A stretch of DNA of 59,645 nt, from contig JAOAAF010000004.1 in the NCBI GenBank assembly GCA_026419015.1, positions 287-59,931 of the forward strand, written 5' to 3'. A program made the position numbers and the translations under genes. The stretch's first letter is position 1; each line of letters starts with the position of its first letter. This document shows, piece after piece, positions 3,567 to 59,614 of the stretch. This DNA comes from Spirochaetota bacterium. Lineage in GTDB: Bacteria; Spirochaetota; UBA4802; JAGODF01. Under the pieces are notes generated by a model. It searched no databases and had not been told where the DNA came from. It saw nothing but the letters and a program-made list of their open reading frames with translations.

Positions 3567-4475
3567 TTAGTGTACAAAAATCTCTTTTCGGTTTTTTTTC
3601 ACAAGTTCAATGTCCTTTTCGTATTTTAAAAGAAAGTTGAGCGTGCTGATTGCGACATCTTCTTTCAACACTTCGCATCCCAAAAGTGCTAATGCTTTTG
3701 CCCAATCAAGAGTCTCACTAATGCTTGGTTCTTTTTTCATTGGCAATTCTCTTATTTTGTGCACTGCTTTTACAAGCTGGCGGATTAAATCGCTACTGCA
3801 TTCAGGGACTTTTAGCGCTACAATTCTTTCCTCGAGTTCTCTGGAAGGGAAGTTTATGTAAAGATGCAAGCACCTGCGTTTTAGGGCATCGGACATTTCC
3901 CGCGCGTTGTTGGAAGTAAGCAGCACAAAGGGTTTTCGTTCAGCTTTAATTGTTCCAATCTCTGGGATAGAGACTTGAAAGTCGGAAAGCACTTCTAAAA
4001 GAAAAGCCTCAAATTCTGAATCCGATTTGTCGATTTCGTCGATGAGGAGCAATGTTGGTTTTTTGTTTGTAATTGCCTGAAGAATTGGACGGGGGATTAA
4101 AAAGCGTTCCGAAAAAAATACATCTTCTTCGCTGGATAATCGATTTACTGCATCGGAAAGCGTTTTTTCATTTTCTAATATTGCCGAAAGCCTGTCCTTA
4201 AGAATTTGGGTATAAAGTAGCTGTTTTGCATATTCCCATTCATAGAGCGCTTTTGCTTCGTCTAAGCCTTCATAACATTGCAGGCGAATGAGATCCATAT
4301 TTAATGCGGAAGCAATGCATTTTCCAAGATCGGTTTTCCCAACCCCTGCAGGACCTTCAACCAGGACTGGTTTTTCCATTTTCATCGCTAAGAAAATCGT
4401 GGTGGCAATTTCTGGTGAACAGATGTATTTTTGATTTTCGAGAGCGCGTATTGTATGCGCGATATCGGTAAACAT
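3567..4475 (-). CDS. MoxR-family AAA+ ATPase, CoxD-like
   Basis: A 302-residue AAA+ ATPase with Walker A GPAGVGKT near residue 40, Walker B LLLIDEIDKSD near 140, and sensor region LLTSNNAREM followed by the arginine-finger region ALKRRCLHLYI. MoxR ATPases act with VWA proteins as chaperones for cofactor insertion or complex assembly. It is the first gene of a two-gene unit with the CoxE-like VWA gene, which starts just after its stop. A strong Shine-Dalgarno (AAGGAG) precedes the ATG. Confidence 0.9.
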   Translation of the reverse strand: MFTDIAHTIRALENQKYICSPEIATTIFLAMKMEKPVLVEGPAGVGKTDLGKCIASALNMDLIRLQCYEGLDEAKALYEWEYAKQLLYTQILKDRLSAILENEKTLSDAVNRLSSEEDVFFSERFLIPRPILQAITNKKPTLLLIDEIDKSDSEFEAFLLEVLSDFQVSIPEIGTIKAERKPFVLLTSNNAREMSDALKRRCLHLYINFPSRELEERIVALKVPECSSDLIRQLVKAVHKIRELPMKKEPSISETLDWAKALALLGCEVLKEDVAISTLNFLLKYEKDIELVKKNRKEIFVH

Positions 4476-4875
4476 AAAAAACTCCTTATGCCAATTGCCA
4501 CTGTGATTGGCAGGTTTTGGCTGGCAAGAAAATTATAGAAAAATTTATTAAAAAAACAGAAACGCATTATTTACAATACATTCTTAAATTGTATCCAAGT
4601 TTTCGAGTAATTTAGTTGTTAATGTATTTCTTATGTATGTTTTTTAAAACGTTCGAGCTTATAATATAATGGGATACAGTGATGCAATTCCATGGGAAGG
4701 ATTTTGAGAATTCACTAATAATTTGGTTAAATTGTTAAAAAAGCAATAAAACCTCGTTGACAGAAAAATGGGTGCTCTTAGTTTGTAATTATGAATAGTT
4801 AACACGCGGGAAGATGCCTGTAGAAGTACGGTAAATATTTCTGAAGCAAATTTTATATTTTTAAAGGAGGTCTTT
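4476..4875. other. Divergent intergenic region between moxR-like and acyl-CoA dehydrogenase genes
   Basis: This 400-base AT-rich stretch separates two divergent genes, so it should hold promoters in both directions. On the plus strand TTGACA at 4757-4762 is a good -35 element; the best partner is a weak TAGTTT at 4779-4784 (16-base spacer). The Shine-Dalgarno AAAGGAGG is at 4863-4870. I see no RNA gene or further open frame. Confidence 0.5.
4757..4784 (+). promoter_or_regulatory. Possible sigma-70 promoter for acyl-CoA dehydrogenase
   Basis: A perfect TTGACA is followed after 16 bases by TAGTTT, a poor -10. It lies about 90 bases upstream of the start codon. The -35 is convincing, the -10 is not. 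Confidence 0.3.
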
Positions 4876-6750
4876 ATGGCTCTTAATCCTTTGGTGGATG
4901 TGCGCGATGCAAAATTTGTGTTATTCGAATTACTCGAAGTCGATAAAATGGGTCAAAAATTTCCACAGTATGCCGATTACGATCGCGATACGATGGAATC
5001 GACCTACGATTTGGCGGAAAAAATTGCAATCGAGCAGGTATATCCAGCAAATGCTGCGGGCGATAAGGAAGGATGCAGCTACGATCCTGCAACAAAAAAA
5101 GTAAAAATTCCTTCTGTTTACAAACCAGCGTTAGACGCATTTCACGAAGCAGGATTTTTAAACGTAATAGATCCCGTTGAAAAAGGCGGGATGGGAATGC
5201 CATATGCAGTTGGCATTGCGTGCAATGAAATATTTTCTGCTGGCTGCATGGCAATGTTGATGTATCCCGGTCTTTCCCACGGTGCAATGCTTTTAATTGA
5301 AAATTTTGGTACGGAAGAGCAGAAGAAGTTGTTTATTCCGAATATGCAGACAGGGAAATGGGGAGGAACAATGTGCTTGACTGAACCGGAAGCTGGTTCG
5401 GATGTTGGGGCGCTCAAAACAAAAGCAGTGAAATTGCCTGATGGCACATATAAAATTACCGGACAAAAAATATTCATCTCTTCGGGAGACAACGATTACT
5501 ATGAAAACATGATTCATCCCGTTCTTGCGCGCATCGAGGGCGATCCAAAGGGAACAAAAGGGATCTCGATTTTTATTGTTCCAAAATATCGCGTCAACCC
5601 AGATGGTTCGCTTGGTGAATTCAACGATGTGATATGTGCAGGGATAGAGCATAAAATGGGCATTAAGGGTTCTGCAACCTGCACGTTGAGTTTTGGCGAT
5701 AATGGCAATTGCATTGGATATCTTTTGGGCGAAGAGCGCAAAGGGATGAAGATCATGTTCCAGATGATGAACGAAGCGCGCCTCGGAGTGGGATTGCAAG
5801 GGCTTGCGCTCTCAAGCACTGCGTACATGCATGCAGTGACGTATACCAAAAATCGAAAGCAGGGTGTGCATGTGACTCAAATGCTTAATCCCGAAGCGCC
5901 TTCGGTGACGATTTCTCAGCATCCCGATGTAAAACGCATGCTTTTGTGGATGAAGAGTTATGTAGAGGGAATGAGAATACTTGTTTACTATCTTGCGCAT
6001 AATTTAAATCTTTCGCATGTTGCAGAAGGCGAAGAAGCGAAAGAAGCGAATGCGCTTGCAGAAGTTCTTATTCCGATTTGCAAAGCGGGCAATACCGATA
6101 CTGCAGTATTAGTAACTTCTGAAGCCATTCAGTGCTATGGTGGATATGGCTATTGTTCCGATTATCCAGTCGAGCAGTTCATGAGGGATGCGAAGATTAC
6201 GCAAATTTATGAAGGCACCAACGGGATCCAATCGATGGATTTAACAATGCGAAAAATTCTCATGAATCCCGAGCAGTACAATTACCAGGTATGGCGCAAG
6301 CGCGTAGCAAATACAGTTAAGGCAGCGCGCGGCGTTGTTGAAGACAAATATGTCGATCTTGTGGAAAAAGGAATGGCAAAGCTCGATGAGGTTATTGAAA
6401 TGATGAAAAAGCAAATGGCCGAGGGGAAATTTTTGCATCTGTTTATGAACGCAACGCCTTTGCAGCAAGCGATGTTTATGATGTCGATGGCATGGGTGCA
6501 TTTGTGGAGCCTTGTCATCACGACACCAAAACGCAAAGAACTTGTCGGCGATAAGAAAGGAGCAGAGCTCGATGCGCTTTTAGCTGAAAATGCGGAAGCA
6601 GCATACTACAATGGGCGCGTGCTGTCGTCGCAATTTTTCCTCGGCGCCGAGTTTCCAAAATATTTTGGGAAAATCGATGCCATTCTTTTTGGCGAAACGG
6701 CAGTTCTCAAAGCATCGGACCCCTGCTTTACAGGTGCACCGCTTGAATAG
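4876..6750 (+). CDS. Acyl-CoA dehydrogenase, long (DmdC/FadE-like) type
   Basis: A 624-residue flavoprotein of the long acyl-CoA dehydrogenase group that also includes DmdC. The N-terminal extension is MALNPLVDVRDAKFVLFELL; the flavin/substrate core contains MCLTEPEAGSDVGA and KIFISSGDND; the catalytic glutamate lies in QIYEGTNGIQS; a ~130-residue C-terminal extension follows (ACDH C-terminal-like). It oxidises an acyl-CoA to the 2-enoyl-CoA with electrons to ETF, in the cytoplasm. The substrate cannot be told: fatty acyl-CoA or 3-methylmercaptopropionyl-CoA are both possible. It stands alone with a strong AAAGGAGG ribosome site and ends at a strong terminator. A FadL-type porin and lipase elsewhere in the window support fatty-acid use. 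Confidence 0.92.
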   Translation: MALNPLVDVRDAKFVLFELLEVDKMGQKFPQYADYDRDTMESTYDLAEKIAIEQVYPANAAGDKEGCSYDPATKKVKIPSVYKPALDAFHEAGFLNVIDPVEKGGMGMPYAVGIACNEIFSAGCMAMLMYPGLSHGAMLLIENFGTEEQKKLFIPNMQTGKWGGTMCLTEPEAGSDVGALKTKAVKLPDGTYKITGQKIFISSGDNDYYENMIHPVLARIEGDPKGTKGISIFIVPKYRVNPDGSLGEFNDVICAGIEHKMGIKGSATCTLSFGDNGNCIGYLLGEERKGMKIMFQMMNEARLGVGLQGLALSSTAYMHAVTYTKNRKQGVHVTQMLNPEAPSVTISQHPDVKRMLLWMKSYVEGMRILVYYLAHNLNLSHVAEGEEAKEANALAEVLIPICKAGNTDTAVLVTSEAIQCYGGYGYCSDYPVEQFMRDAKITQIYEGTNGIQSMDLTMRKILMNPEQYNYQVWRKRVANTVKAARGVVEDKYVDLVEKGMAKLDEVIEMMKKQMAEGKFLHLFMNATPLQQAMFMMSMAWVHLWSLVITTPKRKELVGDKKGAELDALLAENAEAAYYNGRVLSSQFFLGAEFPKYFGKIDAILFGETAVLKASDPCFTGAPLE

Positions 6751-14690: not shown

Positions 14691-14710
14691 AGTAAATACT
14701 TTACTTTTTT
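14691..14710 (+). terminator. Weak terminator after the RND gene
   Basis: AGTAAA (14691-14696) and TTTACT (14700-14705) form a short 6-bp stem followed by a T run. It overlaps the 3' end of the convergent kinase gene. The stem is AT-rich, so efficiency is doubtful. Confidence 0.35.
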
Positions 14711-17700
14711 GATGTATATTTTTCTCGATATTCTTTTGGGCTCATTCCCATTTGATGTTTAAATGCTCTGTTGAATGTGCGCAGGCTTTCAAATCCTGAA
14801 GAATAGGCAATGTCGATTATCAGTGCATCTGTGTGTTTGAGTTTTTCTGCCGCTTGCGTTATGCGAAGTTCGTTAATATACTCCCCTATTTTTTTCCCCG
14901 TCGCTGCTTTAAAGATTTTTCCTAAATAATCAGCATTTAAGTTGAATTTTTTTGCTAAGTTCTCCCTGGTAATATCTTCAGCAGAGTGTTGGTGGATGTA
15001 TTGCAGTATTAAAGAAATTTTTTCATCGGGTATTGACTTAAGTGCCGACTCGGAATCGTTTTTAGTAGGGATCGTAAAAAGCGCTTCTATAGTTTTCGCT
15101 GCGCGTGCGAGAAGCACTTCAAGGAGTCGTGCTTCGTTTTCATTAAATATTCCTGCGGTGAGTGGATTGTCCAGATAAAATGCTCCAATCGGTGAACCGT
15201 TATTCATTATTGGGACGCACATAATCGAACGCAGATTTGCAAGCAAAACGCTTTTGTGATGCTGTAACGTGCTATCTTCACACGCGCTGTGTATAACGAT
15301 GCTTTTGCCGTTTTGTATAACGCTTTCGACAATATTTCTCGAGTACTCAGGAAATTCGCTTCCTCCAATTGTTTTTGAGGCTCGCAACACGGGGAAATTG
15401 GTTTCTCTATCGACAATGAAAATAAGTGCGCGTTGTGCGCCCGCAATTCGAAGGGAGTTATCTAAAAGGCATTCGAGAAAAGATTCAGAGTTTACGGTTG
15501 ATGTAATTTCATCACATAACTGGATTGCCGCTGAGAGTTTTTCTCGACTCAGTGACCGCGCAAGCGGTGATATGAGATTTTCTTCGATTTTTTCGAAACC
15601 GAGTAACACTATGATATTTTTTTTGATGTGTTCTGCAGAAATTTGAAAAGCAATTGCGAGCGCATCGTGTAAAAGTTTTAAGCCTTTTTTGTCTTTTCCT
15701 TCTCGTAAGAGCATTGCGGCATAATTAACAGTACTGCGGGCTTCTTCGTATTTACGCCCAATTTTTCGCGCTTCATCGATTGATGCAATATAGAATCGTT
15801 CTGCGATGGTTGGTTTTCCGAATTTTTCATAGTAATAACCGGCTATGCGCAATGCGCCAGGACGATGAGTGCGCCAACGGAAGCTTTCCTTAAGCCCTTT
15901 GAGCACGATCTTTTTTATTTTTTTAATTTCTTTAATTTGTGTAGTGTCTTTTTTGTTTGCATCAATTGCACACAGCATTGCTTCAGCAAGGTGATAGAAA
16001 AGATGAACAGTATAGTGCCGAAGAAAATTGCTCGAATCAAAAAGGTCTTTTGCATGTTGGAGGTAGTGGATTGCGCGAGGGACATCTCCTTTATCGAGCA
16101 ATGCAGCACCGAGTTCAATTGAAGCCCTGCAGTGGGTAAAAAGCACATTGCGCTCTAAACTGTGGTTGAATGCATGCAGAGCGCATTCTTCTGCTTTCGC
16201 GAGTTCACCTTTTTCAAGGTAAAATCGCGCTCTGTATGTCCACGACTCGCTGATGCCATAATCATCCCCAGTTTTCGATGAGATATCGAGGTATTCGTCG
16301 AGTGCACTTTCTGCCGCCGAATAATCTGCGAGGTAGGTGTAATTGTGTATCAAGCCCGCAACGCACATTCCCATTTCACGGACATCGCCGATGGAGCGAA
16401 AGATATCGTAACTTTTTTTAAAATAAGAAATGCTTTTACTGTAATCAGCCTTCCACTCAAATGAATATCCAAGCCATTGAAGAGTTTGGCCACGGCCCCA
16501 GTTGTCGGGGAATAACTCGTAAATTTTCAACGATTTTTCATAATTTCGTTCAGCGAGTTTAAAAAATCCAATCGACATCCATAAGCTTCCCAATATCGCA
16601 TATGACATTCCAAGCTGGCTTGACTTCCCAATTTTTCGGATTATTAAATTTTTGGTTCGAAGTACAGTGCGAACATATTTGCGAATATCGCTTAAAATGT
16701 ATGACCATCCTAAGTCGAGATAGATGCGAATGATTTGGGAATAATGTTCATCGGAGTTTTTTGTTTGTGGAAAAACTGCGCGTAGGGGCTGAAGAATGCT
16801 TGAAATGATTTCGCGCACGATGCTGAAAATTACGTGGGAGCCATGTATGGGGAGTTTTTCGCCAAGCAAACGCAACCCTTTTTGGCCATGCCGTTCGCAA
16901 TTAAGCCAATCGCCCTTTTTGAAAAATGCTCTGCTAATTTGTTGGTAAATGCGCGCTTTTTTTTGGGGATCGTCAATCAATCCTAAAATTGAATTGAAAA
17001 GCTCAATGGCGCGATCGTATTCGCCGATTGTGTGATATACTTCGCCGAGGTGTTCGATGGTCATGATTTTCAAATTTCGCGCATCGCTCATTTCCAAATG
17101 CGTTGCATGTTGGGATAGACAGGAAAGTAGAATAGTAAAATAGCGGATTGCAACGTCGTTTGCATATTTTTCTTTTGCTTTAAGGGCAGCAGGAAACGCG
17201 TATCGAATAATTTTTTCCGGTTGCTCGCTCATTACGCTATGATGTGCTAAATCGAAGAGCAGTTCATCTTGCATATAATTGGTAAACTTTTCTTCTAATG
17301 CGCCGATGATAATCCGATGAAGATATTTTCGTTCGTCTTCGTTGATGCGCGAATAAAGCGATTCCAGTATTCTGTCGTGGACGAATTGCAGCGTTTTTGT
17401 ATCCTTTCTGCTTTGCTCCAAAATGAAAAGATCTTTTGCTTTATCGATGATATTGATAATTTCTGTTTCGGAATATTCCTGAAGGCGTGGGTCTTTTGAA
17501 GCTAAACTAAAAAGGAGTGACGTATCGATGTTTTTCCCAAGAACTGCTGCAAAAGAAAGCAAAAGCATTTCTCTTTCGTTAAATAATGATAAGCGTTTGA
17601 TGATCGAAGCTATTACTGAATCGGGGAGATCAATGGCGTTGAGTAAAGTTTCGGTATAATTGTTATTTTTCACTGGTGAGAAGGTATCTGCGCGTACAAT

Positions 17701-19401
17701 GTTTTTTATTATTTCGATCGCATGAAAGGGATTTCCCTTACTTGCCTGCAGGATGAGTTTTGATAAATCGTCGAATTGGTTAGGCACAAATGGTAACATG
17801 TTGGCAACGAGCTCGCGCATCAATGGGAACGTCAACGGGGAAATGGTGATGGCAGTACCGCATTCTTGTGCGAAAGCGAGAATTTTTTCGGTAGAAGTGT
17901 TAATCTCGGGTGCATCCTTGCGGAATGACATGACGACTACCAGTGGGGAATTGTTGAGAAGGTGAAATAGTTCGGTGAGCACATCGATGCTGCCGTTATC
18001 GAGCCATTGAATATCGTCGATGAGCAAGACAAGTGGATGCGTTGCGCGTGCGAGGCTATTTAAAAACGCCGCCGCAACCATGTGAAAGCGTTTGCTTTCT
18101 CTGTTAGAGCGCAGTTCCACGAGGGGTGGACAACTTCCAAGGAGCTCCTTCATTTGGGGATTTATTTTATAGACGATTTCTCCCAACTCGCCGATTTGTG
18201 CAGATACCATCGATGCGATTTTTTCGCGCGATTTTGGCGGAAGGGTAATAAAAAAGCTATAATAATCTCCTAACGCTTCTTGTATCGCGCTGTAGGGAAT
18301 TTTTGTGTGACCGGGAAAACATTTTGCGGCAATTGTGATGCCCTTCGAGGAAATGACAAATCGTCGAAATTCGTCCATCAAGCGTGTTTTCCCAAGGCCT
18401 GATTCTCCGACAATCACCCACATCGAACCACGCATCGTTTTTGCATCATCGAATGCATTTTTTAAAATTGAAAGTTCGCGTTCGCGGCCTACCATTTTTG
18501 TTTTGTATGGAATTTTTTTATGGGAGTCATTAAGGCCCGGCGTTATCTCCTTTGCTCCTGAAAGAATTTTTTGCAGATCAACAACAAGCCCTCGTGCCGT
18601 TTGGTAGCGGTGCTCCGGCTCTTTTTCGAGAAGCTTCATTATGACCAAATCTAACGATGGCGCGATCGCATTGTTGTAGTGAGAAGGAGGCGTTGGTTTA
18701 ACCGCAATGTGTTGATGGATGATAGTATTTATGTCCTTTCCGGTAAAAGGTAATTTCCCAGTTACAAGTCTGTAAAGCAAAATTCCCAAAGAATAGAGAT
18801 CGCTTCGCTCATCAATTGTCCCACGTGTGACGTGAATTTGCTCCGGTGCGAGGTAAAAAATAGAACCTGCCGCAGAAAGTTCGTTTTCGCTATCAAACTC
18901 TTTGATTCGCGCAAGGCCAAAATCGATCAGCACCGCTTTCTCGTTGCAAATGAGAACGTTATCGGGTTTAATATCCCCGTGGATAATCTTTTTTGCGTGG
19001 GTTGCTTCAAGCGCATTGCAAAGCTGGATGGTTATGGAAAGTGCGGTTTCGATCGGTAATGCGAGGTCTGGAGAGATGATGTCGAAAAGATTTTTGCCAT
19101 CCACATATTCCATTGCGATGTAATACCGAGTGGTATTTTCGATTGTCGTCATCCCGGAGTCAAAGATTTTAATCACATTTGGATGGTCAATTGTAGCTGC
19201 GATAGATGCTTCCATTCGAAATCGGATGAGATCTTCTTTCCGATTCGAGATTTTGTTATTGTTAAGGAGTTTTAACGCAATGTATGTATTGCAGGAAAGA
19301 TCTTTCGCATAATATACTTCTCCCATTCCCCCTTTGTGGATTAGATTTATTATTTCATACCGATTGGCAATAATTGTACCTTCCATGATTCTGCTGCTCA
19401 T
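14701..19401 (-). CDS. Giant Ser/Thr kinase-AAA-TPR-GAF-AraC fusion regulator
   Basis: 1566 residues. Order: protein kinase, residues ~14-280, with GGMGEV loop, Lys44 in IALKLL, HGDIKPDN at 141-148 (Asp kept, HGD instead of HRD) and DFG at 160-162; then an AAA_16/STAND-type ATPase with Walker A GESGLGKT (332-339) and LLIDDIQWLD; a long TPR-like helical region, ~790-1250; a GAF domain, ~1290-1430; and a C-terminal AraC-type DNA-binding domain, last ~105 residues (ENLAKKFNLNADYLGKIF and IAYSSGFESLRTFNRAFK helices). Similar kinase-AAA-TPR-GAF proteins usually end in a histidine kinase; here a transcription factor domain replaces it. It should sense a ligand, hydrolyse ATP, phosphorylate partners or itself, and bind DNA. 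It is monocistronic; its target is unknown. Confidence 0.93.
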   Translation of the reverse strand: MSSRIMEGTIIANRYEIINLIHKGGMGEVYYAKDLSCNTYIALKLLNNNKISNRKEDLIRFRMEASIAATIDHPNVIKIFDSGMTTIENTTRYYIAMEYVDGKNLFDIISPDLALPIETALSITIQLCNALEATHAKKIIHGDIKPDNVLICNEKAVLIDFGLARIKEFDSENELSAAGSIFYLAPEQIHVTRGTIDERSDLYSLGILLYRLVTGKLPFTGKDINTIIHQHIAVKPTPPSHYNNAIAPSLDLVIMKLLEKEPEHRYQTARGLVVDLQKILSGAKEITPGLNDSHKKIPYKTKMVGRERELSILKNAFDDAKTMRGSMWVIVGESGLGKTRLMDEFRRFVISSKGITIAAKCFPGHTKIPYSAIQEALGDYYSFFITLPPKSREKIASMVSAQIGELGEIVYKINPQMKELLGSCPPLVELRSNRESKRFHMVAAAFLNSLARATHPLVLLIDDIQWLDNGSIDVLTELFHLLNNSPLVVVMSFRKDAPEINTSTEKILAFAQECGTAITISPLTFPLMRELVANMLPFVPNQFDDLSKLILQASKGNPFHAIEIIKNIVRADTFSPVKNNNYTETLLNAIDLPDSVIASIIKRLSLFNEREMLLLSFAAVLGKNIDTSLLFSLASKDPRLQEYSETEIINIIDKAKDLFILEQSRKDTKTLQFVHDRILESLYSRINEDERKYLHRIIIGALEEKFTNYMQDELLFDLAHHSVMSEQPEKIIRYAFPAALKAKEKYANDVAIRYFTILLSCLSQHATHLEMSDARNLKIMTIEHLGEVYHTIGEYDRAIELFNSILGLIDDPQKKARIYQQISRAFFKKGDWLNCERHGQKGLRLLGEKLPIHGSHVIFSIVREIISSILQPLRAVFPQTKNSDEHYSQIIRIYLDLGWSYILSDIRKYVRTVLRTKNLIIRKIGKSSQLGMSYAILGSLWMSIGFFKLAERNYEKSLKIYELFPDNWGRGQTLQWLGYSFEWKADYSKSISYFKKSYDIFRSIGDVREMGMCVAGLIHNYTYLADYSAAESALDEYLDISSKTGDDYGISESWTYRARFYLEKGELAKAEECALHAFNHSLERNVLFTHCRASIELGAALLDKGDVPRAIHYLQHAKDLFDSSNFLRHYTVHLFYHLAEAMLCAIDANKKDTTQIKEIKKIKKIVLKGLKESFRWRTHRPGALRIAGYYYEKFGKPTIAERFYIASIDEARKIGRKYEEARSTVNYAAMLLREGKDKKGLKLLHDALAIAFQISAEHIKKNIIVLLGFEKIEENLISPLARSLSREKLSAAIQLCDEITSTVNSESFLECLLDNSLRIAGAQRALIFIVDRETNFPVLRASKTIGGSEFPEYSRNIVESVIQNGKSIVIHSACEDSTLQHHKSVLLANLRSIMCVPIMNNGSPIGAFYLDNPLTAGIFNENEARLLEVLLARAAKTIEALFTIPTKNDSESALKSIPDEKISLILQYIHQHSAEDITRENLAKKFNLNADYLGKIFKAATGKKIGEYINELRITQAAEKLKHTDALIIDIAYSSGFESLRTFNRAFKHQMGMSPKEYREKYTSKK

Positions 19402-19475
19402 CGTTCACGTTTATCCAAAATACAAGCGATTTAAACCAAAAGTCAATCCATAATTGCGTTAGGGATAGAGGACAA

Positions 19476-20864
19476 CTAAAACTCAAGCGTTTTTACACAG
19501 CGGGGATAGGGAATAACATCGCGAATATTTTGCATACCCGTTACAAACTGAATGAGTCGTTCAAATCCTAAACCGAACCCAGAATGCGGTACTGTGCCAA
19601 AGCGGCGCAAATCTAAATACCACCAGTAATCGTCAGGGTTGAGGCCAAGTTCGAGCATTCTGTTTTTTAATTTATCGTAATCGGCTTCGCGTTCGCTTCC
19701 GCCAATAATTTCGCCAAGGCGTGGGACTAAAACATCCATTGCGCGCACAGTTTTCTCATCATCGTTTAGCTTCATGTAAAAAGCTTTGATTTCTTTTGGA
19801 TAATCGGTAATGATGACCGGTTTTTTAAAAGCTTTTTCGGTGATATATCGTTCGTGTTCGGATTGCAGATCGTTCCCCCATTTTGGAGGAAATTCGAAAT
19901 TTTCACCGGATTTTTCTAGCAAGGAAATTGCTTCGGTGTAGGTGATGCGTTCGAAACGATTTTTAATAATATTTTCAAGAGTAAAGATGAGATTGTTATC
20001 GATTCGGGAATTAAAAAAGTTCATATCATCTGCGCATTTGTCCAGAAGCCATGTAAGGATGTATTTTATGAATTCTTCGGCAAGATTCATGTTGCCGATA
20101 ATATCGCAAAATGCAACTTCAGGTTCAACCATCCAGAATTCTGCTAAGTGGCGTGAAGTATTTGAATTTTCTGCGCGGAAGGTAGGACCGAATGTGTAAA
20201 TGCGAGTTAACGCCAGTGCGTAGGTTTCACCTTCGAGTTGCCCACTTACCGTAAGCGATGCTTTTTTACCAAAAAAATCTTCAGTGTAGTCAACTGTACC
20301 TTCTTTCATTGGAACGTTTTCGAGCGGCAAAGTGGTAACCTGAAACATCTGCCCCGCACCTTCGCAGTCGCTGCCGGTGATGATGGGAGTATGGACATAT
20401 ACAAATCCGCGTTCCTGAAAAAATGTGTGAATTGCAAAGCTCATTGAACTTCGTACGCGCGCAATTGCACCGAACGTATTGGTTCGTGGACGAAGGTGGG
20501 CAATTTCCCTAAGGAATTCAAAGGAATGGCGTTTTTTTTGGAGAGGGTACTCATCAGCAGGTGCAGTGCCATAGATAAAAATATCCTTTGCCGCAATTTC
20601 CTTTGACTGTCCTGAACCCTGGGATGGAACGAGGTTCCCTTTCACTCGAATGCTGGCGCCAGTAGAGATGGTCGAAATGACATTAGAAAGTGGATTGTTT
20701 GGAAGGTCGATTACAATTTGAAGATTGTGTATAGTAGAACCGTCGCTGATTTCCAAGAAACATACGCTTTTGGATTCTCGTTTTGTACGCACCCATCCGT
20801 TTGTGCAGATTTCTCGCCCATCAGGAGGAAGAGCTAATATGTCTTTAATCAATAGCGCACTCAT
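19476..20864 (-). CDS. asnS: Asparaginyl-tRNA synthetase
   Basis: 462 residues with an N-terminal OB-fold anticodon-binding domain ([21 protein letters not shown]) and a class IIb catalytic core. Motif 2 is in [19 protein letters not shown], where the HLAEFWMVE form marks AsnRS, and motif 3 is [15 protein letters not shown]. It charges tRNA-Asn with asparagine. It starts 12 bases after the stop of an AsnRS paralogue and is surely in the same operon. Confidence 0.96.
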
Positions 20865-20876
20865 ATTACGGTCGTG

Positions 20877-22112
20877 TCAGTACAGATACAAAGGATGCGA
20901 ATCGGGATTTTTCCCAAAAAATGTAATATCGTCAATTTGCTTAATTTTATCACCGCGAAGGATTGCATACATTGTCCTTTCGACGCCAATTCCACCGCCC
21001 ATTGTATCGGGGAAATATGGGGTACCATCATCTTTTTTCAATGACACAAAAAGCAAGAACGGCCCGTAGCCACCAAGCTCATCGATGTTTTCGATATTTC
21101 CGTTTTTGAAAATTGGGCGCGTTGTTAGCACGCGATTGTCGATGATGCGTTCGACAATTGGTTCGAAAAGCCATTCCCGAATTGCTCCAGATAATATTTC
21201 TTTTGCTGGAGTTTGTTTCGAAGTTTTGTAATCGATGCTTTTTGCACAAATATCATAATTGAATATGTGTTCGGATTTGATCGATTTTGGATCAACCTTT
21301 TTGTTTCCTGGCAAAAGGTATGGATACACTAAATCGTAGTTTTCGCGCAAAAGGCCCGTGATCCAGAAAAATTGTGCAGGTGTTTCTGTTCCTGCACCTT
21401 CTTCGTAAGTTTTTGCACCGTATTTTTGTACGCAATAATCTTTCGTGAATGTTGGAAACGGTATTGAGGGAACTTCGAGCACAACGCCCAATTCTTTTAA
21501 GTTATCGGCATTTTTTTTGTTTATTTGCTCACATGCGTGGACTATCATTCTTTCAAAAAAATTTTTGATAATTTTTATATCTTCCTCCAGCACTTCGCGC
21601 ACTCGAGTTGGTTCATTGAGATATTGCTCAAGCGTGATGCCTCTGTTTCGTTTCAATTCTACATCGATTTGTGAGAAATCGATTAAATATTTTCCGCGCT
21701 GTTCTTTTGTGGGGCTTTCGATTTCAAGACGTATGTTTGGAGAATCGACAAATATCCCCTTTATTTTTGGATTTGCACATGCTAAAAATTTGCTGTAAAT
21801 CATGCTGTGCGTTGTAAGGTAGAGGTGTCCTTTGTACGGGATTGAAGGGGTATGTTCAATATCATGTGCTAAAGGGTCGGTGATGATGCTTAGCATTACT
21901 TTTTCAAGATTAAACAGCCCTTCGTGTTCAAGAAAATTGAGTATGGAATTGACAAATGTGGTGCGAATTGCCATCGCGTGGTAAAGTTCGTCGGAAATCC
22001 ATTTTTTAATGTAGTTATCGCAAATGAAATCTTGTAAAGAAATTCCGCTTTCTGTCACTGCTGCTTGGAATCGATAGAGACTTTCGCCGATGATTTTTAT
22101 GTTATCTTCCAT
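20877..22112 (-). CDS. AsnRS-like protein without anticodon domain, probable asparagine synthetase (AS-AR type)
   Basis: 411 residues resembling the catalytic core of class IIb synthetases. Motif 2 is altered (QRGKYLIDFSQIDVEL) and motif 3 is GGGIGVERTMYAIL. The N-terminal OB fold is absent, replaced by helical sequence. Archaeal proteins of this kind, derived from AsnRS, make asparagine from aspartate and ammonia through an aspartyl-adenylate. The position directly ahead of asnS supports the same role here: make Asn, then charge it. It is an inference from family and context; an aminoacylating or other amidating activity is possible. No clear ribosome site precedes the ATG. Confidence 0.72.
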   Translation of the reverse strand: MEDNIKIIGESLYRFQAAVTESGISLQDFICDNYIKKWISDELYHAMAIRTTFVNSILNFLEHEGLFNLEKVMLSIITDPLAHDIEHTPSIPYKGHLYLTTHSMIYSKFLACANPKIKGIFVDSPNIRLEIESPTKEQRGKYLIDFSQIDVELKRNRGITLEQYLNEPTRVREVLEEDIKIIKNFFERMIVHACEQINKKNADNLKELGVVLEVPSIPFPTFTKDYCVQKYGAKTYEEGAGTETPAQFFWITGLLRENYDLVYPYLLPGNKKVDPKSIKSEHIFNYDICAKSIDYKTSKQTPAKEILSGAIREWLFEPIVERIIDNRVLTTRPIFKNGNIENIDELGGYGPFLLFVSLKKDDGTPYFPDTMGGGIGVERTMYAILRGDKIKQIDDITFFGKNPDSHPLYLY

Positions 22113-36309: not shown

Positions 36310-38193
36310 TTATGCTCCTTCATTGAATTCGATTCTGATATTATACGTCCCTTCTTCAATGTGTTTTTGTAAATTTGGAAATGATTTTTCGAGCAAATGC
36401 AACATTGGGGAATTTTCAGCCAAAACGTATGCGGTAAAACCATGTAATCCTTCGCTTTTGCCAAGTAAGGTTAAATAGCTTAGCAGCTCTGTCCCAATTC
36501 CCTTATTTTGCCATTTATCCCGAACAGCAAAGGCAAGTTCGGCATAATGGCTATCTTTTTCTTTTATAAATTGCCCAATACCGACAAGATATTCGGTTTC
36601 CTCATCTTCAATGCATGCCAGAAGCACCATCTCGCGGGTATAATCGATCACAACAAATTCTTGGCGAGCAGGATGTGGAAAATCAAACCTCATGGAAAGA
36701 AATCTGCGATACATGCTTTTGTCGGAGAGAGAATAGAAAAAATCTTTAATAAGTGGCTCATCGCTAATTTTTACTGGGCGCAAATAGAGAGTTATGCCTT
36801 TCGAAGTAGTTCGCCGAGATTCGAGATGTCGAGGATACTCGCCAGCTTTACCAGGAATGTATGCCTGATCTCGATAAATGAGATTATGTCGCTTCGCTTC
36901 ATCAATAAGCCATGGTCGAAATTTAGGATGTGCGATTGCGATTAATGCCATTGCGCGCTCTCTTACATTTTTCCCATGCAGGTAAGCAATTCCATATTCC
37001 GTTACGACATAATGAACGTCACCTCGGTTTAAGGTTACTCCCGTACCGCTTTCCAAGAATGGTACAATGCGCGATATCGAATCATCGCGAGCAGTTGATT
37101 TTAGCACCAAAATGGTTTTCCCCCCTGGGGCAAATGTCGTTGCGCGCATAAAATCAGCGCTTCCCCCTATGCCGCTGTAAAATGTATTTCCTATCGACTC
37201 TGCTGTTGCTTGGCCTGTGAGATCAATTTGCAGTGCAGCATTAATTGCGGTCATATTATGAATTTGCGATATTATCGACGGATGATTGGTATAATCGATT
37301 GTACGAAATTCGATTGTCGGATTATCGTCGATGAATTTATATGTGGGCGCAGTGCCCATACAAAACGATGCAACAGTTTTCCCTCTATCGATTGTTTTCA
37401 TAGAATTATCAATAACACCATCGCGCAAAAGATCAACCATCGCATCGGTAAGTAGCTCGGAATGAATTCCTAAGTGCTTTTTGTTTTTAAGCTGCGATAG
37501 AATTGCGTTTGGCATGCTACCGTAGCCGATTTGTAGCGTGTCACCATCTCTCACAATCTTTGCGACGTAATTGCCAATTAACATTGCGGCTTCATCTTCA
37601 ACAGGCGGGTTAAATTCCAGAAGGGGTTCTTCGTATGGTACAATATAATCTATCTTTGAAAGGTGAATAAATGTATCGCCATGTACTCTTGGCATGAGTG
37701 GATTCATCTGAGCAACAATCACTCGTGACTTTTCGATTGCAGCTTTCGTAATGTCTACGCTTATTCCTAAGCTAACGTAGCCGTTTTTGTCGGGCACGGA
37801 TGTTTGAATAAGCGCGATGTCGAGAAAAATTCTGCCGCGACGAAAAAGTTCAGGTAATTTTGAAAGAAATATTGGAGTATAATCGGCAATGCCTTGGTTC
37901 ACTGCGTTTCTGCTGCTGGTGCTGATAAAAAAAGAATTGTGGCGAAAATTGTATGAGAATCGTTCGTCAGCATAAGGGGCAACCCCCATTGTCCAAATGT
38001 GAAACACTTCTGCTTCCGCAAATGCCTTTGGGTTTTCTTCAATGTAGTTAACGAGCGATTGTAAAAGATATTGCGGCTCTCCACAACCCGTGCTAAGAAA
38101 GATTCGATCTCCACGGCGGATATTCGAAAAGATTTCTTTCGGGGATAAAAATTTATTTGGGTACTTTTCTTTCCAAATGTCGATGGAATTCAT
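36310..38193 (-). CDS. Acetyl-CoA hydrolase/CoA-transferase fused to a GNAT acetyltransferase
   Basis: About 627 residues from the ATG at 38193, which overlaps the upstream stop (ATGA) and has a GGGGG ribosome site; a longer frame exists to 38226. Residues ~1-440 are an acetyl-CoA hydrolase/4-hydroxybutyrate CoA-transferase: LQIGYGSMPNAIL, GIHSELLTDAMV with the catalytic Glu, and GIGGSADFMR. Residues ~450-627 are a GNAT domain (LRPVKISDEPLIKDFF, DKWQNKGIGTELLSYL, the acetyl-CoA-binding loop). The first part moves CoA between acids; the second may acetylate a protein or small molecule. Fusions of these two domains are known in anaerobes. Last gene of a three-gene unit. Confidence 0.88.
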   Translation of the reverse strand: MNSIDIWKEKYPNKFLSPKEIFSNIRRGDRIFLSTGCGEPQYLLQSLVNYIEENPKAFAEAEVFHIWTMGVAPYADERFSYNFRHNSFFISTSSRNAVNQGIADYTPIFLSKLPELFRRGRIFLDIALIQTSVPDKNGYVSLGISVDITKAAIEKSRVIVAQMNPLMPRVHGDTFIHLSKIDYIVPYEEPLLEFNPPVEDEAAMLIGNYVAKIVRDGDTLQIGYGSMPNAILSQLKNKKHLGIHSELLTDAMVDLLRDGVIDNSMKTIDRGKTVASFCMGTAPTYKFIDDNPTIEFRTIDYTNHPSIISQIHNMTAINAALQIDLTGQATAESIGNTFYSGIGGSADFMRATTFAPGGKTILVLKSTARDDSISRIVPFLESGTGVTLNRGDVHYVVTEYGIAYLHGKNVRERAMALIAIAHPKFRPWLIDEAKRHNLIYRDQAYIPGKAGEYPRHLESRRTTSKGITLYLRPVKISDEPLIKDFFYSLSDKSMYRRFLSMRFDFPHPARQEFVVIDYTREMVLLACIEDEETEYLVGIGQFIKEKDSHYAELAFAVRDKWQNKGIGTELLSYLTLLGKSEGLHGFTAYVLAENSPMLHLLEKSFPNLQKHIEEGTYNIRIEFNEGA

Positions 38194-39323
38194 TTTGCAT
38201 TGCCCCCATGAACAGAATGAACGCATGGAATTTCAGTTATCACTACTTCAACGCCATAATGATCTGAAGGCAACATGCCGTCTTTTGCTTCATTGAAAAC
38301 GATTCGTGCGCTTTTGATGTGCTGTTCGGTGAAGTGCTTTGAAAGCAAAATGAAATCGATTCTCCGCGCAACGCTTCGATCGAATTCTGCTTCAAGTGAG
38401 GCAATCCCTTTTCGTAACCTTTTGCCATCGGCGCGATAGGGGGATCCATCGTAAAGTCGAGCATTACTATTCGTATGGGGATCCCATGTATAGCCCTTAC
38501 TTGTGGGGTTTTTCACCGCAAACGCATCGAGTAGGCTAAGATCGCGTATTAGCGTGCGGAAAGCTGGCGATTTGTCTGTTGTATTAAAATCGCCCGCAAT
38601 GATATATGGATGGTTATGCCGTATTGTAATTTCCTTTACAAATGAAAGCAATTGCAATATTTCGTTTTCTGTCTTTTGATATCCAATTTCTATCTCGCTC
38701 AAAATATCCTTTTTGCGTTCTGGAGGTAAATTTTCTTTAACTATCAATTCATCGATCTTTTTCTCAAGCCCTTCGTGGGGAATGAGAGCGAAATGCGCAT
38801 GGATGTTGAAAACAAGTAACGGTCTTTTATCGACGGTAACTTTTGTCACCACGATGTAGCGCGCAGAAGTTGTATGAAAGGAAAAGATCTCAGTTTGTAT
38901 TCCGCTTCCAGAAATTCTTCTACTCGCCACGTATTCGAGTTTGTGCTCTTTTTTCGAAAGCACGGCAAGCCCTTCGCTAAAATTTTGGGGAATACCAATT
39001 CCAAAAAATTTAATGCCACAGTTAGTGATCCTCCATTTGGAATGATAATTAAGCGCGCGAGAGAGTTTTTTCACATAATGGGGAATAGGATTTGCTTCTT
39101 GAATTGCTAAAATGTCAGGTGAATATGTCTTTACGTAATCGACAAAAATTCGAAATCGCATTTCTCGCTTTTCGCGCGTTTCATATTCATCAACTTCGAA
39201 AAAGGTTGCTCTGTTCATCCCATGCCATACATTGAACGAGATGATTTTAATATCATGGCCGAATAAGGATTGGATTGAAATCATAACCATAAGTAGCAAA
39301 AGAGATGGGAAGAGAGGTTTCAT
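38190..39323 (-). CDS. Exported endonuclease/exonuclease/phosphatase-family protein
   Basis: 377 residues with a signal peptide (MKPLFPSLLLLMVMISIQSLFG). The EEP fold motifs are all present: ISFNVWHGMN, ILAIQEANP (Glu for metal), IIAGDFNTTDKSPAF and SDHYGVEVVI at the end. Members cleave nucleic acids or phosphoesters, including sphingomyelin and inositol phosphates. A periplasmic or secreted location points to nutrient or lipid phosphoester cleavage, not DNA repair. The gene begins 2 bases after the upstream stop. Confidence 0.87.
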   Translation of the reverse strand: MKPLFPSLLLLMVMISIQSLFGHDIKIISFNVWHGMNRATFFEVDEYETREKREMRFRIFVDYVKTYSPDILAIQEANPIPHYVKKLSRALNYHSKWRITNCGIKFFGIGIPQNFSEGLAVLSKKEHKLEYVASRRISGSGIQTEIFSFHTTSARYIVVTKVTVDKRPLLVFNIHAHFALIPHEGLEKKIDELIVKENLPPERKKDILSEIEIGYQKTENEILQLLSFVKEITIRHNHPYIIAGDFNTTDKSPAFRTLIRDLSLLDAFAVKNPTSKGYTWDPHTNSNARLYDGSPYRADGKRLRKGIASLEAEFDRSVARRIDFILLSKHFTEQHIKSARIVFNEAKDGMLPSDHYGVEVVITEIPCVHSVHGGNAK

Positions 39324-42987: not shown

Positions 42988-43293
42988 AAAAAATTTCCTT
43001 TTATTATGTAAGTTTATTCACACTCAATTTGATTTCGTCGGTATTCACATGATGTTTCAATTATGCCATTTTTTCATTGGTGATGTTTCTTTTTTCGTAT
43101 GCATGTAAGTATTACAAATTATTTGCCATTGCTCGATTGAAAAATTTTTTCTGTAAGTGCGAATTACCCAATATAGACTGCCGATTTATAGTATCAAATT
43201 TTTTAAATTTTTTTCAAGCAAAAAAATCATGGACAAAGAAAATATTGTCGTCACAAGTGAACAAAAATATTTTATTTCACGAGGGTCGTGTAC
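42988..43293. other. Divergent intergenic region before the activase gene
   Basis: A 306-base AT-rich gap with only a ribosome site (GAGGG at 43281-43285) recognised. No clear promoter pair, RNA gene or open frame. Confidence 0.45.
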
Positions 43294-46200
43294 ATGTACA
43301 GTTTGGGCATCAACATTGGTTCTTCCAATGTGAAAGTCACAATGCTTGAAGGATATTCCATCCTTTGGAGCGAAGTGATTCCGCATGAAGGGAATTTCCC
43401 AAGCGCGTTGCGAAAAATACTGGAGCGCAAAGATCTTCCTGCAAATTTAAAATCGCTTGCGACAGGTACAGAAGGAAGGCATTTGTTAAATATTAATAGC
43501 GTCATCGAACCGTTATGCATTGAAGAGGCATTAAAGTATTCACGTTATCGGGTCGATGCAGTGGTTTCTCTCGGTGGAGAGGATCTCGTCGTATACACAG
43601 TTGATGAAAATAAAAAAATAGTGAACAATTTTTCAGGCAACAAATGCGCATCGGGAACGGGTGAGTTTTTCAAACAGCAGCTTGCGCGAATGGATATGAC
43701 GCTTTCTGACGTCAATACTATTCCTAACAATTGCAAAATTCTCAAGCTTTCATCGCGATGTTCGGTATTTATGAAAAGCGATTGCACGCATCGGTTAAAC
43801 AAAGGCGAGGCAACGAAAGGCGATATTGTGCTTTCGCTTAGCGATGTGATGGCGACAAAGGTGATCGATTTTCTCAAGCGGGCGCGCATAAGATCGGGAA
43901 GCGTATTGTTGACAGGTGGAGTGACTCTTAATAAACATTTGCTTACGTTTCTTCGGGAACGATTGCCAGAAATTGAATTCCTTGTACCAGAGCAGGCGCC
44001 TTATTTTGAAGCATATGGCGCCGCGCTGTTGGCGAAACAGCATGGAAGCATTCTGCCTTCATTGGATAATCTTTTTAAACCAGCGAAAGTGCAGTTTGCG
44101 CGCTTTAGGAACCTTAAAAGCGCAGAAGGGCGCGTCACATATGTTGAATCAAAGCGGGGGAAGATTCGCAACTTGGGTGAATATGTCCTAGGAGTTGATG
44201 GTGGTTCCACTACTACGAAGGCATGTCTGATCGACATCGAAACGCAAGAAATCGTCGCCGCGCATTATGGGCGGACGCATGGCGATCCCGTACGGGCGCT
44301 GAAAAGCTGTCTGGTAGAAATCCGCAAGCAGATCAAAGAGGCAATCGGCGATGGTAAAATCAATATTACTTTGGCAGCAACAACGGGTTCATCGCGCGAA
44401 ATACTTGGCGTGTTTCTTGAAACGCCTGCGGTGTACAACGAAATAATCGCCCATGCGGTTGGTACTACATTTTTTAAACCCGATGTGGATACAATTTTTG
44501 AAATTGGTGGCCAGGATGCAAAATATGTGTATTTGCAGAATATGGTGCCAATCGATTATGCGATGAACGAAGCGTGTTCAGCAGGCACGGGATCATTTTT
44601 AGAAGAATCTGCACAGGGGGATTTAAATATTCCCCGCGCCGATATGATTGGGGATATTGCAATCCAAGCAAATGAACCTTTGAAATTTGGCGAGCACTGT
44701 TCGGCGTTTATTAATTCCGACATTCGCAAGGCAATAAACCAGGGCGCAAGCCGCGAAGACATTACCGCAGGGATTGTCACTTCCATTGTGGCAAATTATC
44801 TTAACAGGGTTGTGGGAAATCGCACCATCGGATCGCGCATTGTGCTTCAAGGAGGAGTGGCGAAAAACAAAGCAGTGCCGCTCGCATTTTCGCTTTTGTT
44901 AGATAAAGACATCCTTGTGCCGCCCGATCCCGAACTTATGGGATGTTTTGGGGTTGGGTTGTTAGTGAAACAAAAATATGAAGAAGGGATAATCGAAAAG
45001 AAATGGTACGATCTCGATAAAATCATCGAAACAGAAATTGCCTATGAAAGAGAATTTAAATGCCGTTCCTGCGAAAACTTTTGCCCCATTCGCGTGCTTG
45101 CCGTCAATGGAAATAAATATATGTTTGGAGGACGATGCAATAAATATGCAAACATCCGCAAAAAATGTCAAATCGATGAGTCGAAAATTCCAAACTTTAT
45201 AGAAGAAAGAAATCGACTTTTATTTGAAGAGTGTGCACCAGACCCTTCCCGTTTTCAGAAAAAACGAAATGTCGTTGTGGGTATCCCGCGTGCGTTTTCT
45301 GTGTATACGTTATGGCCATTTTATTCGTGGTTTTTCCATACGTTGGGGGTGGAAGTAGCGCTTTCGAAAAATATTTCGCACGAGGGAACAGCGCGCGTTG
45401 AAAGCGCATACTGTTTCCCTGCGGAAATTGCGCATGGAGCGGTTCAAGATTGTTTTGATCAAGGAGTTGATTATATTTTTGTACCGCATTTTCGCGATAT
45501 GGAAAGCTTTGAGGAAAACATGCCGGGTAATTTTTGCCCCATTACGCAAAGCTTCCCTTATTACATAAAAAAAGCATTTCCTGAAATATCTGAAGAGAAA
45601 CTTTTGTGTCCTGTGGTATCGTTCCGTTATGGGATGAATGCTGCGGCGAAACACTTTTTGGAAGTGGGCAAAAAACTTGGATTTTCGGAGAAAGAAACTC
45701 TCCACGCGTTTGAAATCGCATTTAAAAAACAAAAGGAATTCGAAGAAAGAGCCCGCGCGTTAGGGGAGCGCGCACTCGCATGGGCTCGGCAGAGCGAAAA
45801 CCCCGTGATCGCAATTCTTGGGCGCCCCTACAATGCCTTTACCTTGGATGCGAACATGGGAATTCCGCGTAAATTTACATCTCGGGGTTTTGCAGTCATT
45901 CCTTTTGACATTTTACCGGTGAGCGATGAACAAATCTATCCAAACATGTACTGGTATTATGGACAGCTCGATATGAAGGCGTGTTCGCGGCTTCGAAGTG
46001 AACCAAATATTTTTGTTACATTCATAAGCAATTTTTCCTGTGCGCCCGATTCGTTTATGCTTCATTACCTAAAATGGATGATGGGCACAAAGCCGTTTTT
46101 GATACTTGAGTTCGATTCCCACACCGCAGATGCCGGGGTTGATACTCGCGTCGAGGCTTTTTTGGATATCATCGAAGGATATCGCACAAAATACAAGGGT

Positions 46201-47604
46201 GGGCTAAAAGATCGTTATGATAATGGCTTGAGATTTGTTGCAGATGGAAAAAATGAGATGTATATTATGGACGCGCATCACAATCGGCGCATTGAAATTA
46301 AGGGAAATCCGAAAGTAAAGCTATTGCTTTCAAACATGGGACGCCTTTCGACCGAAATTTTAGCTGCAGCGCTTCGCTCGTATGGCGTGTATGCCGAGGC
46401 CATGCCAGTGCCCGATGTGTATACATTGCAGCTTGCGCGAAACTATGTTTCAGGAAAAGAATGCCTGCCTTCACATTTGGTGTTGGGAAGCGCACTGCAG
46501 TATTTTCTATCGGGAAAATATCGCAAAGATGAAATTTATCTTCTCTTTGTCCCTACTACCAAAGGGCCATGCCGAACGGGCCAGTATTTTGTTTTTTTTG
46601 AAAATCTTTTCAAGGATTTACGTTTGGAAAACGTAGTCGTGTTTACACTTGATTCAGAAAATTCGTATAATGAATTGGGTCCGAATTTTTCGAAAAAAGC
46701 GTGGTGGGCGATTGTAGCGGGCGATTATATGAAAGATATAGAAACAGCTCTTCGCACATGTGCGGAAAATCCACAGGGTGCATTGGCTATCTACGATGAA
46801 CTCTGGCAGAAACTCATTTCGGTCGCGGAAAAAGATATATGCAAAATTATCCCAGTTCTTAATGATATTGCGCGCGAAATTTCAAAAATACCGCTCAAAA
46901 AAACAATCGATCAGTGTCCAAAAGTGCTCATCGTAGGTGAAATCTATGTGCGGAGGGATGATTTTGCAGTTGATGAGCTTATTCAACATTTTAGCAAAAG
47001 GGGTATCATAGGGAAGGTTTCGGGAGTCTCGGAATGGGTGTATTATTGCGATTTTGTGCGAGAGTACGAACTAAAGAAAAGATTAATACAAAAGCCGTGG
47101 CATTCCCGCATTTTTTCAAAAGAGTTCAAGAATTTAATTTCTTTTAAAATTGAAATGATGTATAAACATCGCGTTGAGCATTTGATAAAACGCGCGCTTG
47201 CAAAAAGTGGGTTGCTTATTGAAACGCCTCACAATATGAAAAAAATAATGGAAATTTCAAAAGAAAATTTCACTTCCCACGAGTTGCATTCTGAAATTGT
47301 AATTTCAAGTGGAGTAGCGGCAGCCGCTATGAACGATGGATATTCTGGTATCGTCAACATATCTCCTTTCGCATGCCTTATTGGACGGGTGATTGAAGGT
47401 CTTTATACTCCATGGGCGCGAGAGAGGAAATATCCCGTCATGTCTATTGAAATCGATGGAAATCTTTTCCCACCAGCAGTGGTAAGCAGGCTCGAAATTT
47501 TTATGCTGAATGTGCTTCGGTTTCGCGAAAATCCGCACATTTCATCAATTATTGAAACGGGAGAGTCTGCCATAAAAATTGATCGGAAAATAATGAAAAA
47601 TTGA
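43294..47604 (+). CDS. Giant BadF/BadG/HgdC-type acyl-CoA dehydratase activase
   Basis: About 1436 residues. Two ASKHA ATPase domains occur in tandem: residues ~1-255 (INIGSSNVKVTM, NKCASGTGEFFKQQ) and ~290-560 (LGVDGGSTTTKACLI, EIGGQDAKYVY, NEACSAGTGSFLEESA). Both carry CxxGTG cysteines that hold a shared 4Fe-4S cluster in HgdC. A Cys-rich stretch (CRSCENFCP..CNKY..C) and a DUF2229-type domain follow, then a C-terminal HgdB-like part (YVSGKECLPSHLVLG, TTKGPCRTGQY). Such proteins use ATP to push electrons into 2-hydroxyacyl-CoA dehydratases or benzoyl-CoA-type reductases; some act alone. The dehydratase subunits are not in the window. Confidence 0.9.
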   Translation: MYSLGINIGSSNVKVTMLEGYSILWSEVIPHEGNFPSALRKILERKDLPANLKSLATGTEGRHLLNINSVIEPLCIEEALKYSRYRVDAVVSLGGEDLVVYTVDENKKIVNNFSGNKCASGTGEFFKQQLARMDMTLSDVNTIPNNCKILKLSSRCSVFMKSDCTHRLNKGEATKGDIVLSLSDVMATKVIDFLKRARIRSGSVLLTGGVTLNKHLLTFLRERLPEIEFLVPEQAPYFEAYGAALLAKQHGSILPSLDNLFKPAKVQFARFRNLKSAEGRVTYVESKRGKIRNLGEYVLGVDGGSTTTKACLIDIETQEIVAAHYGRTHGDPVRALKSCLVEIRKQIKEAIGDGKINITLAATTGSSREILGVFLETPAVYNEIIAHAVGTTFFKPDVDTIFEIGGQDAKYVYLQNMVPIDYAMNEACSAGTGSFLEESAQGDLNIPRADMIGDIAIQANEPLKFGEHCSAFINSDIRKAINQGASREDITAGIVTSIVANYLNRVVGNRTIGSRIVLQGGVAKNKAVPLAFSLLLDKDILVPPDPELMGCFGVGLLVKQKYEEGIIEKKWYDLDKIIETEIAYEREFKCRSCENFCPIRVLAVNGNKYMFGGRCNKYANIRKKCQIDESKIPNFIEERNRLLFEECAPDPSRFQKKRNVVVGIPRAFSVYTLWPFYSWFFHTLGVEVALSKNISHEGTARVESAYCFPAEIAHGAVQDCFDQGVDYIFVPHFRDMESFEENMPGNFCPITQSFPYYIKKAFPEISEEKLLCPVVSFRYGMNAAAKHFLEVGKKLGFSEKETLHAFEIAFKKQKEFEERARALGERALAWARQSENPVIAILGRPYNAFTLDANMGIPRKFTSRGFAVIPFDILPVSDEQIYPNMYWYYGQLDMKACSRLRSEPNIFVTFISNFSCAPDSFMLHYLKWMMGTKPFLILEFDSHTADAGVDTRVEAFLDIIEGYRTKYKGGLKDRYDNGLRFVADGKNEMYIMDAHHNRRIEIKGNPKVKLLLSNMGRLSTEILAAALRSYGVYAEAMPVPDVYTLQLARNYVSGKECLPSHLVLGSALQYFLSGKYRKDEIYLLFVPTTKGPCRTGQYFVFFENLFKDLRLENVVVFTLDSENSYNELGPNFSKKAWWAIVAGDYMKDIETALRTCAENPQGALAIYDELWQKLISVAEKDICKIIPVLNDIAREISKIPLKKTIDQCPKVLIVGEIYVRRDDFAVDELIQHFSKRGIIGKVSGVSEWVYYCDFVREYELKKRLIQKPWHSRIFSKEFKNLISFKIEMMYKHRVEHLIKRALAKSGLLIETPHNMKKIMEISKENFTSHELHSEIVISSGVAAAAMNDGYSGIVNISPFACLIGRVIEGLYTPWARERKYPVMSIEIDGNLFPPAVVSRLEIFMLNVLRFRENPHISSIIETGESAIKIDRKIMKN

Positions 47605-47903: not shown

Positions 47904-48013
47904 ATAATAAATTTATTAAGAAATTTTACATTATTATTTGAACATGAAGTATATATTTATAAAAAGGGTAAAAAGGAATGAATAAAAATTTAGTTTTTAA
48001 AGTGAGGTGTGCA

Positions 48014-52324: not shown

Positions 52325-52358
52325 TATATAAACTAAAAATATTGAATTGAGGTGTAAA

Positions 52359-59063: not shown

Positions 59064-59614
59064 ATGAAAAAATTAAGCGTTATAGCACTTACGATTGTGT
59101 TTTTATGTGGGTTTTCGCTCATTGCGATGGCAAAAACCTACGATTTGGTGCTCCTTCATGGGCTTACCAACAAACACCAATGGAGCGATGCGTTTTTGAA
59201 TCAAGTTGCTTCAATTTGGGGATCCGGAAATGTATATGTGATTTATACAAACACATCGACACGTGTATGGACGCGAACGATTAATGGGCGCGTTATTTAT
59301 TTTTGCGGTGAGAACGATTTTAGCGCGGGCGATAAATATATTTGGACTCAAGCATCACGAATGCGAACAAAAATTGTGCTATTGCAGCAATCGTACGGAT
59401 TGAGCACCAATTTTAACGTGATTGCGCACAGCATGGGCGGGTTAGTGACGCGGTACTATGCATGGCAATATCCTTACACCGTTGCGGGATTAGTGACGCT
59501 TGGCACGCCCCATCACGGGTCATCGCTTGCGGTTGCAGCAGATTTTGCATTTTTAAGCTATTTCATCGGCGCGCAAGAGGCAATGGATCATTTAAAGCCT
59601 GCATGGGTACAGAA
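59064..59614 (+). CDS. Secreted alpha/beta-hydrolase (lipase-like), 3' end missing
   Basis: 183 intact codons. Signal peptide MKKLSVIALTIVFLCGFSLIAMA, then YDLVLLHGLTNKHQWSDAF with the oxyanion-hole HG motif and the nucleophile elbow AHSMGG (Ser123) followed by LVTLGTPHHGSS, the classic lipase pattern. Asp and His of the triad would lie in the missing part. It may cleave triglycerides or other esters outside the cell and feed the FadL-type porin nearby. The frame continues through the terminal adapter to read LLYTSPSPR, which is not biological. Confidence 0.85.

Follow-up and report, generated by a model that had tools for sequence, protein, structure and literature searches.

The window, that is, the whole stretch of 59,645 nucleotides analysed, contains at 14701-19401 on the minus strand a single open frame that begins with ATG (Met6 being an alternative start) and encodes a protein of 1566 amino acids. 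The gene, its domains and its upstream neighbours are located as follows:

14701..19401, minus strand: whole gene of the kinase-STAND-TPR-GAF-AraC regulator, 1566 aa (single open frame; 22 distinct genes of the same architecture in 13 genomes of the order)
18598..19359, minus strand: Ser/Thr kinase domain, residues 15-268 (Pfam PF00069, 8.8e-47; motif table; best solved relatives PknB)
17932..18495, minus strand: STAND nucleotide-binding domain (AAA_16), residues 303-490 (Pfam PF13191, 1.1e-25; AlphaFold model m721764eac359, MalT 8bob as top PDB match)
17107..17931, minus strand: helical domain, winged helix and arm, residues 491-765 (AlphaFold secondary structure; Foldseek matches to MalT, 6mfv, CED-4 and resistosomes)
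15652..17067, minus strand: TPR superhelix, residues 779-1250 (Pfam TPR_12 in four stretches, 1.7e-17; TPR_MalT below its cut-off)
15088..15480, minus strand: GAF domain, residues 1308-1438 (Pfam PF01590, 5.9e-11; GAF folds among the Foldseek matches, model m0a0d35796e6e)
14722..14958, minus strand: AraC double helix-turn-helix (HTH), residues 1482-1560 (Pfam PF12833, 3e-21; Foldseek 3oou and AdpA-DNA 3w6v, rmsd 1.2)
19402..19475, minus strand: 74-bp gap to the upstream asparaginyl-tRNA-synthetase-like gene (terminator and promoter scans)
19476..22112, minus strand: a pair of genes resembling class II tRNA synthetases (19476-20864 and 20877-22112) that precede the regulator gene on its own strand

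The presence of kinase, ATPase, TPR, GAF and AraC domains in one protein, which an earlier note on this DNA had reported without giving the strand, was borne out by the Pkinase, AAA_16, TPR, GAF and HTH_18 matches, each of which exceeded its curated Pfam cut-off. The Pfam matches listed for the 1566-aa protein included no histidine kinase domain (HisKA/HATPase), and AraC occupies the C-terminus. Direct reading of the kinase motifs showed Lys44, Glu64 of alpha-C, HGD with Asp143, Asn148, the DFG Asp160 and APE, in agreement with the earlier reading of HGD instead of HRD with Lys44, Asp143 and DFG present. The hallmarks of Hanks-type Ser/Thr kinases (VAIK Lys, alpha-C Glu, HRD Asp and DFG Asp) are therefore all in place, with the Arg of HRD replaced by Gly. 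The sister protein L089 (48% identity), whose gene is truncated by its contig end, also keeps all catalytic residues, with HRD where the window protein has HGD, and the two share 51% identity in the kinase, 50% in the AAA and 51% in the TPR domains.

Walker A (GESGLGKTR at 332) and Walker B (LLIDDIQW at 459) were likewise read directly. The AlphaFold model of residues 296-775 (pLDDT 85, pTM 0.83) has the layout NBD, HD, winged helix and arm, and its top PDB match in Foldseek was MalT (8bob_C, TM 0.59/0.67), followed by the bacterial STAND-TPR protein 6mfv and, lower in the list, by CED-4, the apoptosome and NLR/plant resistosomes. Both Walker motifs in a predicted NBD-HD-winged-helix NOD, with a superhelical repeat (the TPRs) after it, place the protein among the STAND ATPases. 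The motif FVHDRI at 673-678 lies at the end of the winged helix, a position at which NLRs carry their MHD motif. The TPR superhelix is likely to be the sensor of an inducer or partner.

At the C-terminus, the HTH_18 match spans positions 1-79 of the 80 in the profile, and the last ~90 residues form a complete double HTH in the AlphaFold model of residues 1285-1566, consistent with the earlier claim that the C-terminal ~105 residues are a complete AraC double HTH. In Foldseek, this head superposed on 3oou, 6swi and AdpA-DNA 3w6v at 0.9-1.2 Å (1.2 Å for AdpA-DNA), so that Pfam and Foldseek agree on the two HTH motifs in an AraC DNA-binding fold that mark the AraC/XylS family. The same model has a pTM of 0.57 and a pLDDT below 50 in the GAF-AraC linker, and it does not constrain the relative placement of GAF and AraC.

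Scans of the 74-bp upstream gap found no terminator-like site and one promoter-like site, as expected by chance, and the gene is possibly co-transcribed with the two upstream tRNA-synthetase-like genes. The second of these (20877-22112) is a diverged tRNA-synt_2 gene with a weak family match only, lying beside the asparaginyl-tRNA-synthetase-like gene. Downstream of the regulator gene is a convergent RND pump. Elsewhere in the window, we noted a fusion of an acetyl-CoA hydrolase/transferase with a GNAT acetyltransferase (36310-38226), and two consecutive proteins of ~1400 aa (47978-52324 and 52347-56516), both lacking a Pfam match, that follow a BadF/DUF2229 CoA-activase-like protein (43288-47604).

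Relatives and their C-terminal outputs

The 22 genes with the identical order of parts all come from one order. A second full-length copy, with 30% identity to the window protein, is encoded in the source genome, and one genome of the order has five copies, four of them within one 26-kb stretch (G031:C38:49418-75233; L119, L120) that also carries a short AraC gene and represents a local expansion. In addition, two 1583-aa kinase-AraC proteins, L134 (G004:C20) and L138 (G016:C79), were identical at 1578 of 1583 positions in genomes of two different families, reflecting either a mis-binned contig or a very recent transfer.

In a sample of 393 genomes of the phylum, with the two best candidates per genome scored, matches extending to the AraC end were confined to this order. 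We also searched the 24 genomes behind named loci (one of the same phylum) and three further phyla, sampled at 141, 118 and 121 genomes; the matches were to the chassis or its ATPase, and none of them reached the AraC end. Two Myxococcota relatives have a near-complete chassis, one ending in GGDEF and the other running into a GGDEF-like start. Full-length AraC-ended forms thus appear, from these searches, only in this order; since profile matches frequently end past the ATPase, distant ones elsewhere could have escaped detection. The earlier note had raised the question of whether the architecture is common and well described; we found it to be recurrent within one order, with no full-length example outside it and no description in the literature searched.

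The kinase-AAA-TPR-GAF body ends variously in a SpoIIE phosphatase, GGDEF, a histidine kinase (L153, L167) or AraC. A histidine kinase as the usual end, as previously supposed, was rejected for this phylum: regex and Pfam searches of the relatives gathered gave SpoIIE and GGDEF ends, which outnumber the histidine kinase ends. The SpoIIE/GGDEF-ended members in the phylum (L097, L098, L103 and others) share the body of the window protein at 25-46% identity by domain, but carry a C-terminal enzyme where the window protein has AraC. In a tree of residues 10-1285, with contig-cut rows counted as a separate label, the output label changes at least 12 times, and the AraC output needs three changes, as would fit a single ancient origin within the order followed by losses.

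Similar AraC tails, 41-56% identical to that of the window protein, are present on membrane receptors of the order, among them L157 (7TMR-DISM-GAF-AraC, 3711-5927) and L003-L006, which are membrane-anchored one-component regulators. These have an N-terminal receptor where the window protein has kinase-STAND-TPR, and L157 shares with it the GAF before AraC. The AraC tree was too short to bear on a single origin of the AraC tail from such membrane proteins, its starred branches forcing only one change.

Four AraC-ended genes (G001:C11, two in G003, and G029:C19) and two short AraC genes (G026:C59 and G034:C9) are each followed directly, on the same strand, by a secreted lipase-type alpha/beta hydrolase. 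For the AraC-ended genes, a simple count gives an expectation of 0.01 such adjacencies in 25 genes, although two of the four genes are sisters. The window end truncates a secreted lipase-like gene, whose start occupies 59064-59645 and which belongs to the family found 3' of some kinase-STAND-AraC genes. A lipase as the target of the window gene is unsupported and was rejected, because this homologue is 40 kb away. Looking for a target site, we scanned for promoters, terminators and repeats and obtained nothing exceeding chance; no repeats were returned from the upstream gaps.

Kinase residues and ATPase motifs in the family

Lys44, Asp143 and Asp160 are nearly always intact in the GGDEF/SpoIIE-ended members (all three kept in 28/31), but were kept together in only 5 of the 22 AraC-ended relatives; the other 17 lack at least one and retain the other parts. 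The difference gave p = 1e-6 in a plain Fisher test that ignores relatedness. Walker A and B were kept in all 53 proteins (22/22 AraC-ended, 11/11 GGDEF-ended and 20/20 SpoIIE-ended). On the tree, the kinase state changed at least four times within the AraC-ended set and three times among the others, and a tree-aware paired test of kinase loss against AraC output yielded only two to three independent pairs and hence had no power. AraC-ended members have thus lost kinase catalytic residues repeatedly, whereas the window copy keeps them, with HGD for HRD. In three pairs with degraded kinases, kinase and AAA identities were 79 versus 81%, 66 versus 68% and 51 versus 46%; divergence of the degraded kinases does not outpace that of the AAA domain, and they are therefore maintained as folded pseudokinases. 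Since most AraC-ended relatives have a degraded kinase and all have the ATPase motifs, the STAND switch is the conserved engine.

Proposed mechanism and alternatives

The window protein is probably a MalT-like, ATP-gated, cytosolic STAND transcription regulator with an AraC head, in which the kinase acts as an input or cis-modifier and not as the output. This reading starts from the architecture, the intact ATPase motifs and the family-wide kinase loss, all directly observed, and from the predicted folds of the NOD-arm and the AraC head. For the nucleotide cycle, multimerisation, DNA binding, signal and targets of the regulator, we infer a scheme in which the NOD (NBD-HD-winged helix) would be closed on ADP at rest, and the signal that opens it would be perceived by GAF, the TPR superhelix or both, with the kinase contributing in the window copy. 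ATP binding would then lead to multimerisation and to clustering of the C-terminal AraC domains, which would occupy repeated sites in a cooperative manner and attract RNA polymerase. The kinase would be a folded regulatory domain, catalytically dead in most AraC-ended relatives; in the window copy it may have remained able to set the switch by phosphorylating either its own chain or a partner. The real trigger could be GAF or the kinase rather than the TPRs. The idea that one chain senses, phosphorylates and binds DNA, put forward in the earlier note, is possible for the window copy, given its intact kinase residues, but does not describe the general mode of the family, in which most AraC-ended kinases are degraded and the ATPase is kept. 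Tentatively, the chassis may have exchanged its enzymatic outputs for a head that binds DNA and so become a direct transcription factor, after which its kinase would repeatedly have become a pseudokinase that acts as a sensor; a few members, the window copy among them, may have stayed catalytically active and link self-phosphorylation with ATP-gated promoter clustering in a single chain.

With the catalytic residues intact in the window protein, L089 and L090, and the kinase conserved between the window protein and L089 as much as the rest of the protein, the kinase might instead be the main switch, autophosphorylation or cis phosphorylation of AraC/GAF controlling DNA binding in a fused analogue of PknK and VirS, the first of which phosphorylates the second from a separate chain (PMC4601284). 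We regard this as unlikely, as one or more of Lys44, Asp143 and Asp160 are missing from 17 of the 22 AraC-ended relatives, with everything else kept. In addition, the window protein, with HGD in place of HRD, is a non-RD kinase, which argues against activation-loop control. It is less probable still that the protein is mainly a signalling hub with a kinase directed at other proteins, the HTH serving for localisation or being vestigial rather than an activator head. Such a role would fit the failure to recognise a target gene beside the window gene, and soluble STAND kinases can have several phosphorylation targets (PMC4601284), but AraC is the best-conserved region among the relatives (52-97%, versus 35-81% in the ATPase), with fold and motif residues intact, and AraC-ended genes stand directly upstream of secreted lipases at four loci. 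An assembly join or frameshift between GAF and AraC, which the earlier note had allowed for and which the 217-contig draft and the GC content of the AraC end (36.6%, versus 38-46% in the rest of the gene) might suggest, was excluded with near certainty because the junction is in frame and the same join is shared by 22 distinct genes, which lie on separate contigs in 13 genomes and include the second copy in the source genome, and comparable GC swings occur within the gene (37.9% in the arm).

Comparison with known systems

Escherichia coli MalT, a STAND transcription activator of described mechanism (PMC4381067), has the same order of NOD, arm, TPR-like sensor and C-terminal DNA-binding domain as the window protein, and was the top structural match of its NOD-arm. 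By analogy, the window protein may work like MalT, yet it stands outside the MalT family proper, having HTH_18/AraC instead of the LuxR-type HTH at its C-terminus. MalT ends in a LuxR-type HTH and has neither a kinase nor a GAF domain. The HstK-type dual kinases of cyanobacteria and Leptospira (PMC1262709, PMC2176072), the latter likewise in Spirochaetota, combine a Ser/Thr kinase with a histidine kinase and, like the window protein, hold kinase and GAF in one soluble chain; their output is phosphotransfer, whereas the window protein has an AraC head and lacks the C-terminal HisKA/HATPase of this type. In Mycobacterium tuberculosis, PknK phosphorylates the AraC factor VirS, increasing its promoter affinity 2.5-fold (PMC4601284). 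This pair resembles the window protein in that a soluble Ser/Thr kinase with a STAND region controls an AraC-family factor, but it consists of two separate proteins, with no GAF and no covalent AraC domain. Residues 300-764 also matched the TOMM system kinase/cyclase fusion TIGR03903 of NCBIfam (3.4e-64), far under its curated cut-off (217 versus 706 bits), and that family is named for a cyclase output.

Dual STK-HK kinases and STAND transcription factors are already known, and in the literature searched, of partial coverage, we found no description of the kinase-STAND-AraC fusion or of its drift to a pseudokinase. One sensor body has been traded among four outputs, namely phosphatase, c-di-GMP synthesis, histidine kinase and DNA binding, which provides a natural experiment on the role of the N-terminal kinase, whose catalysis appears dispensable where the output is DNA binding. 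Comparison of the kinase-intact and kinase-dead AraC-ended members makes the roles of the STAND switch and the kinase testable.
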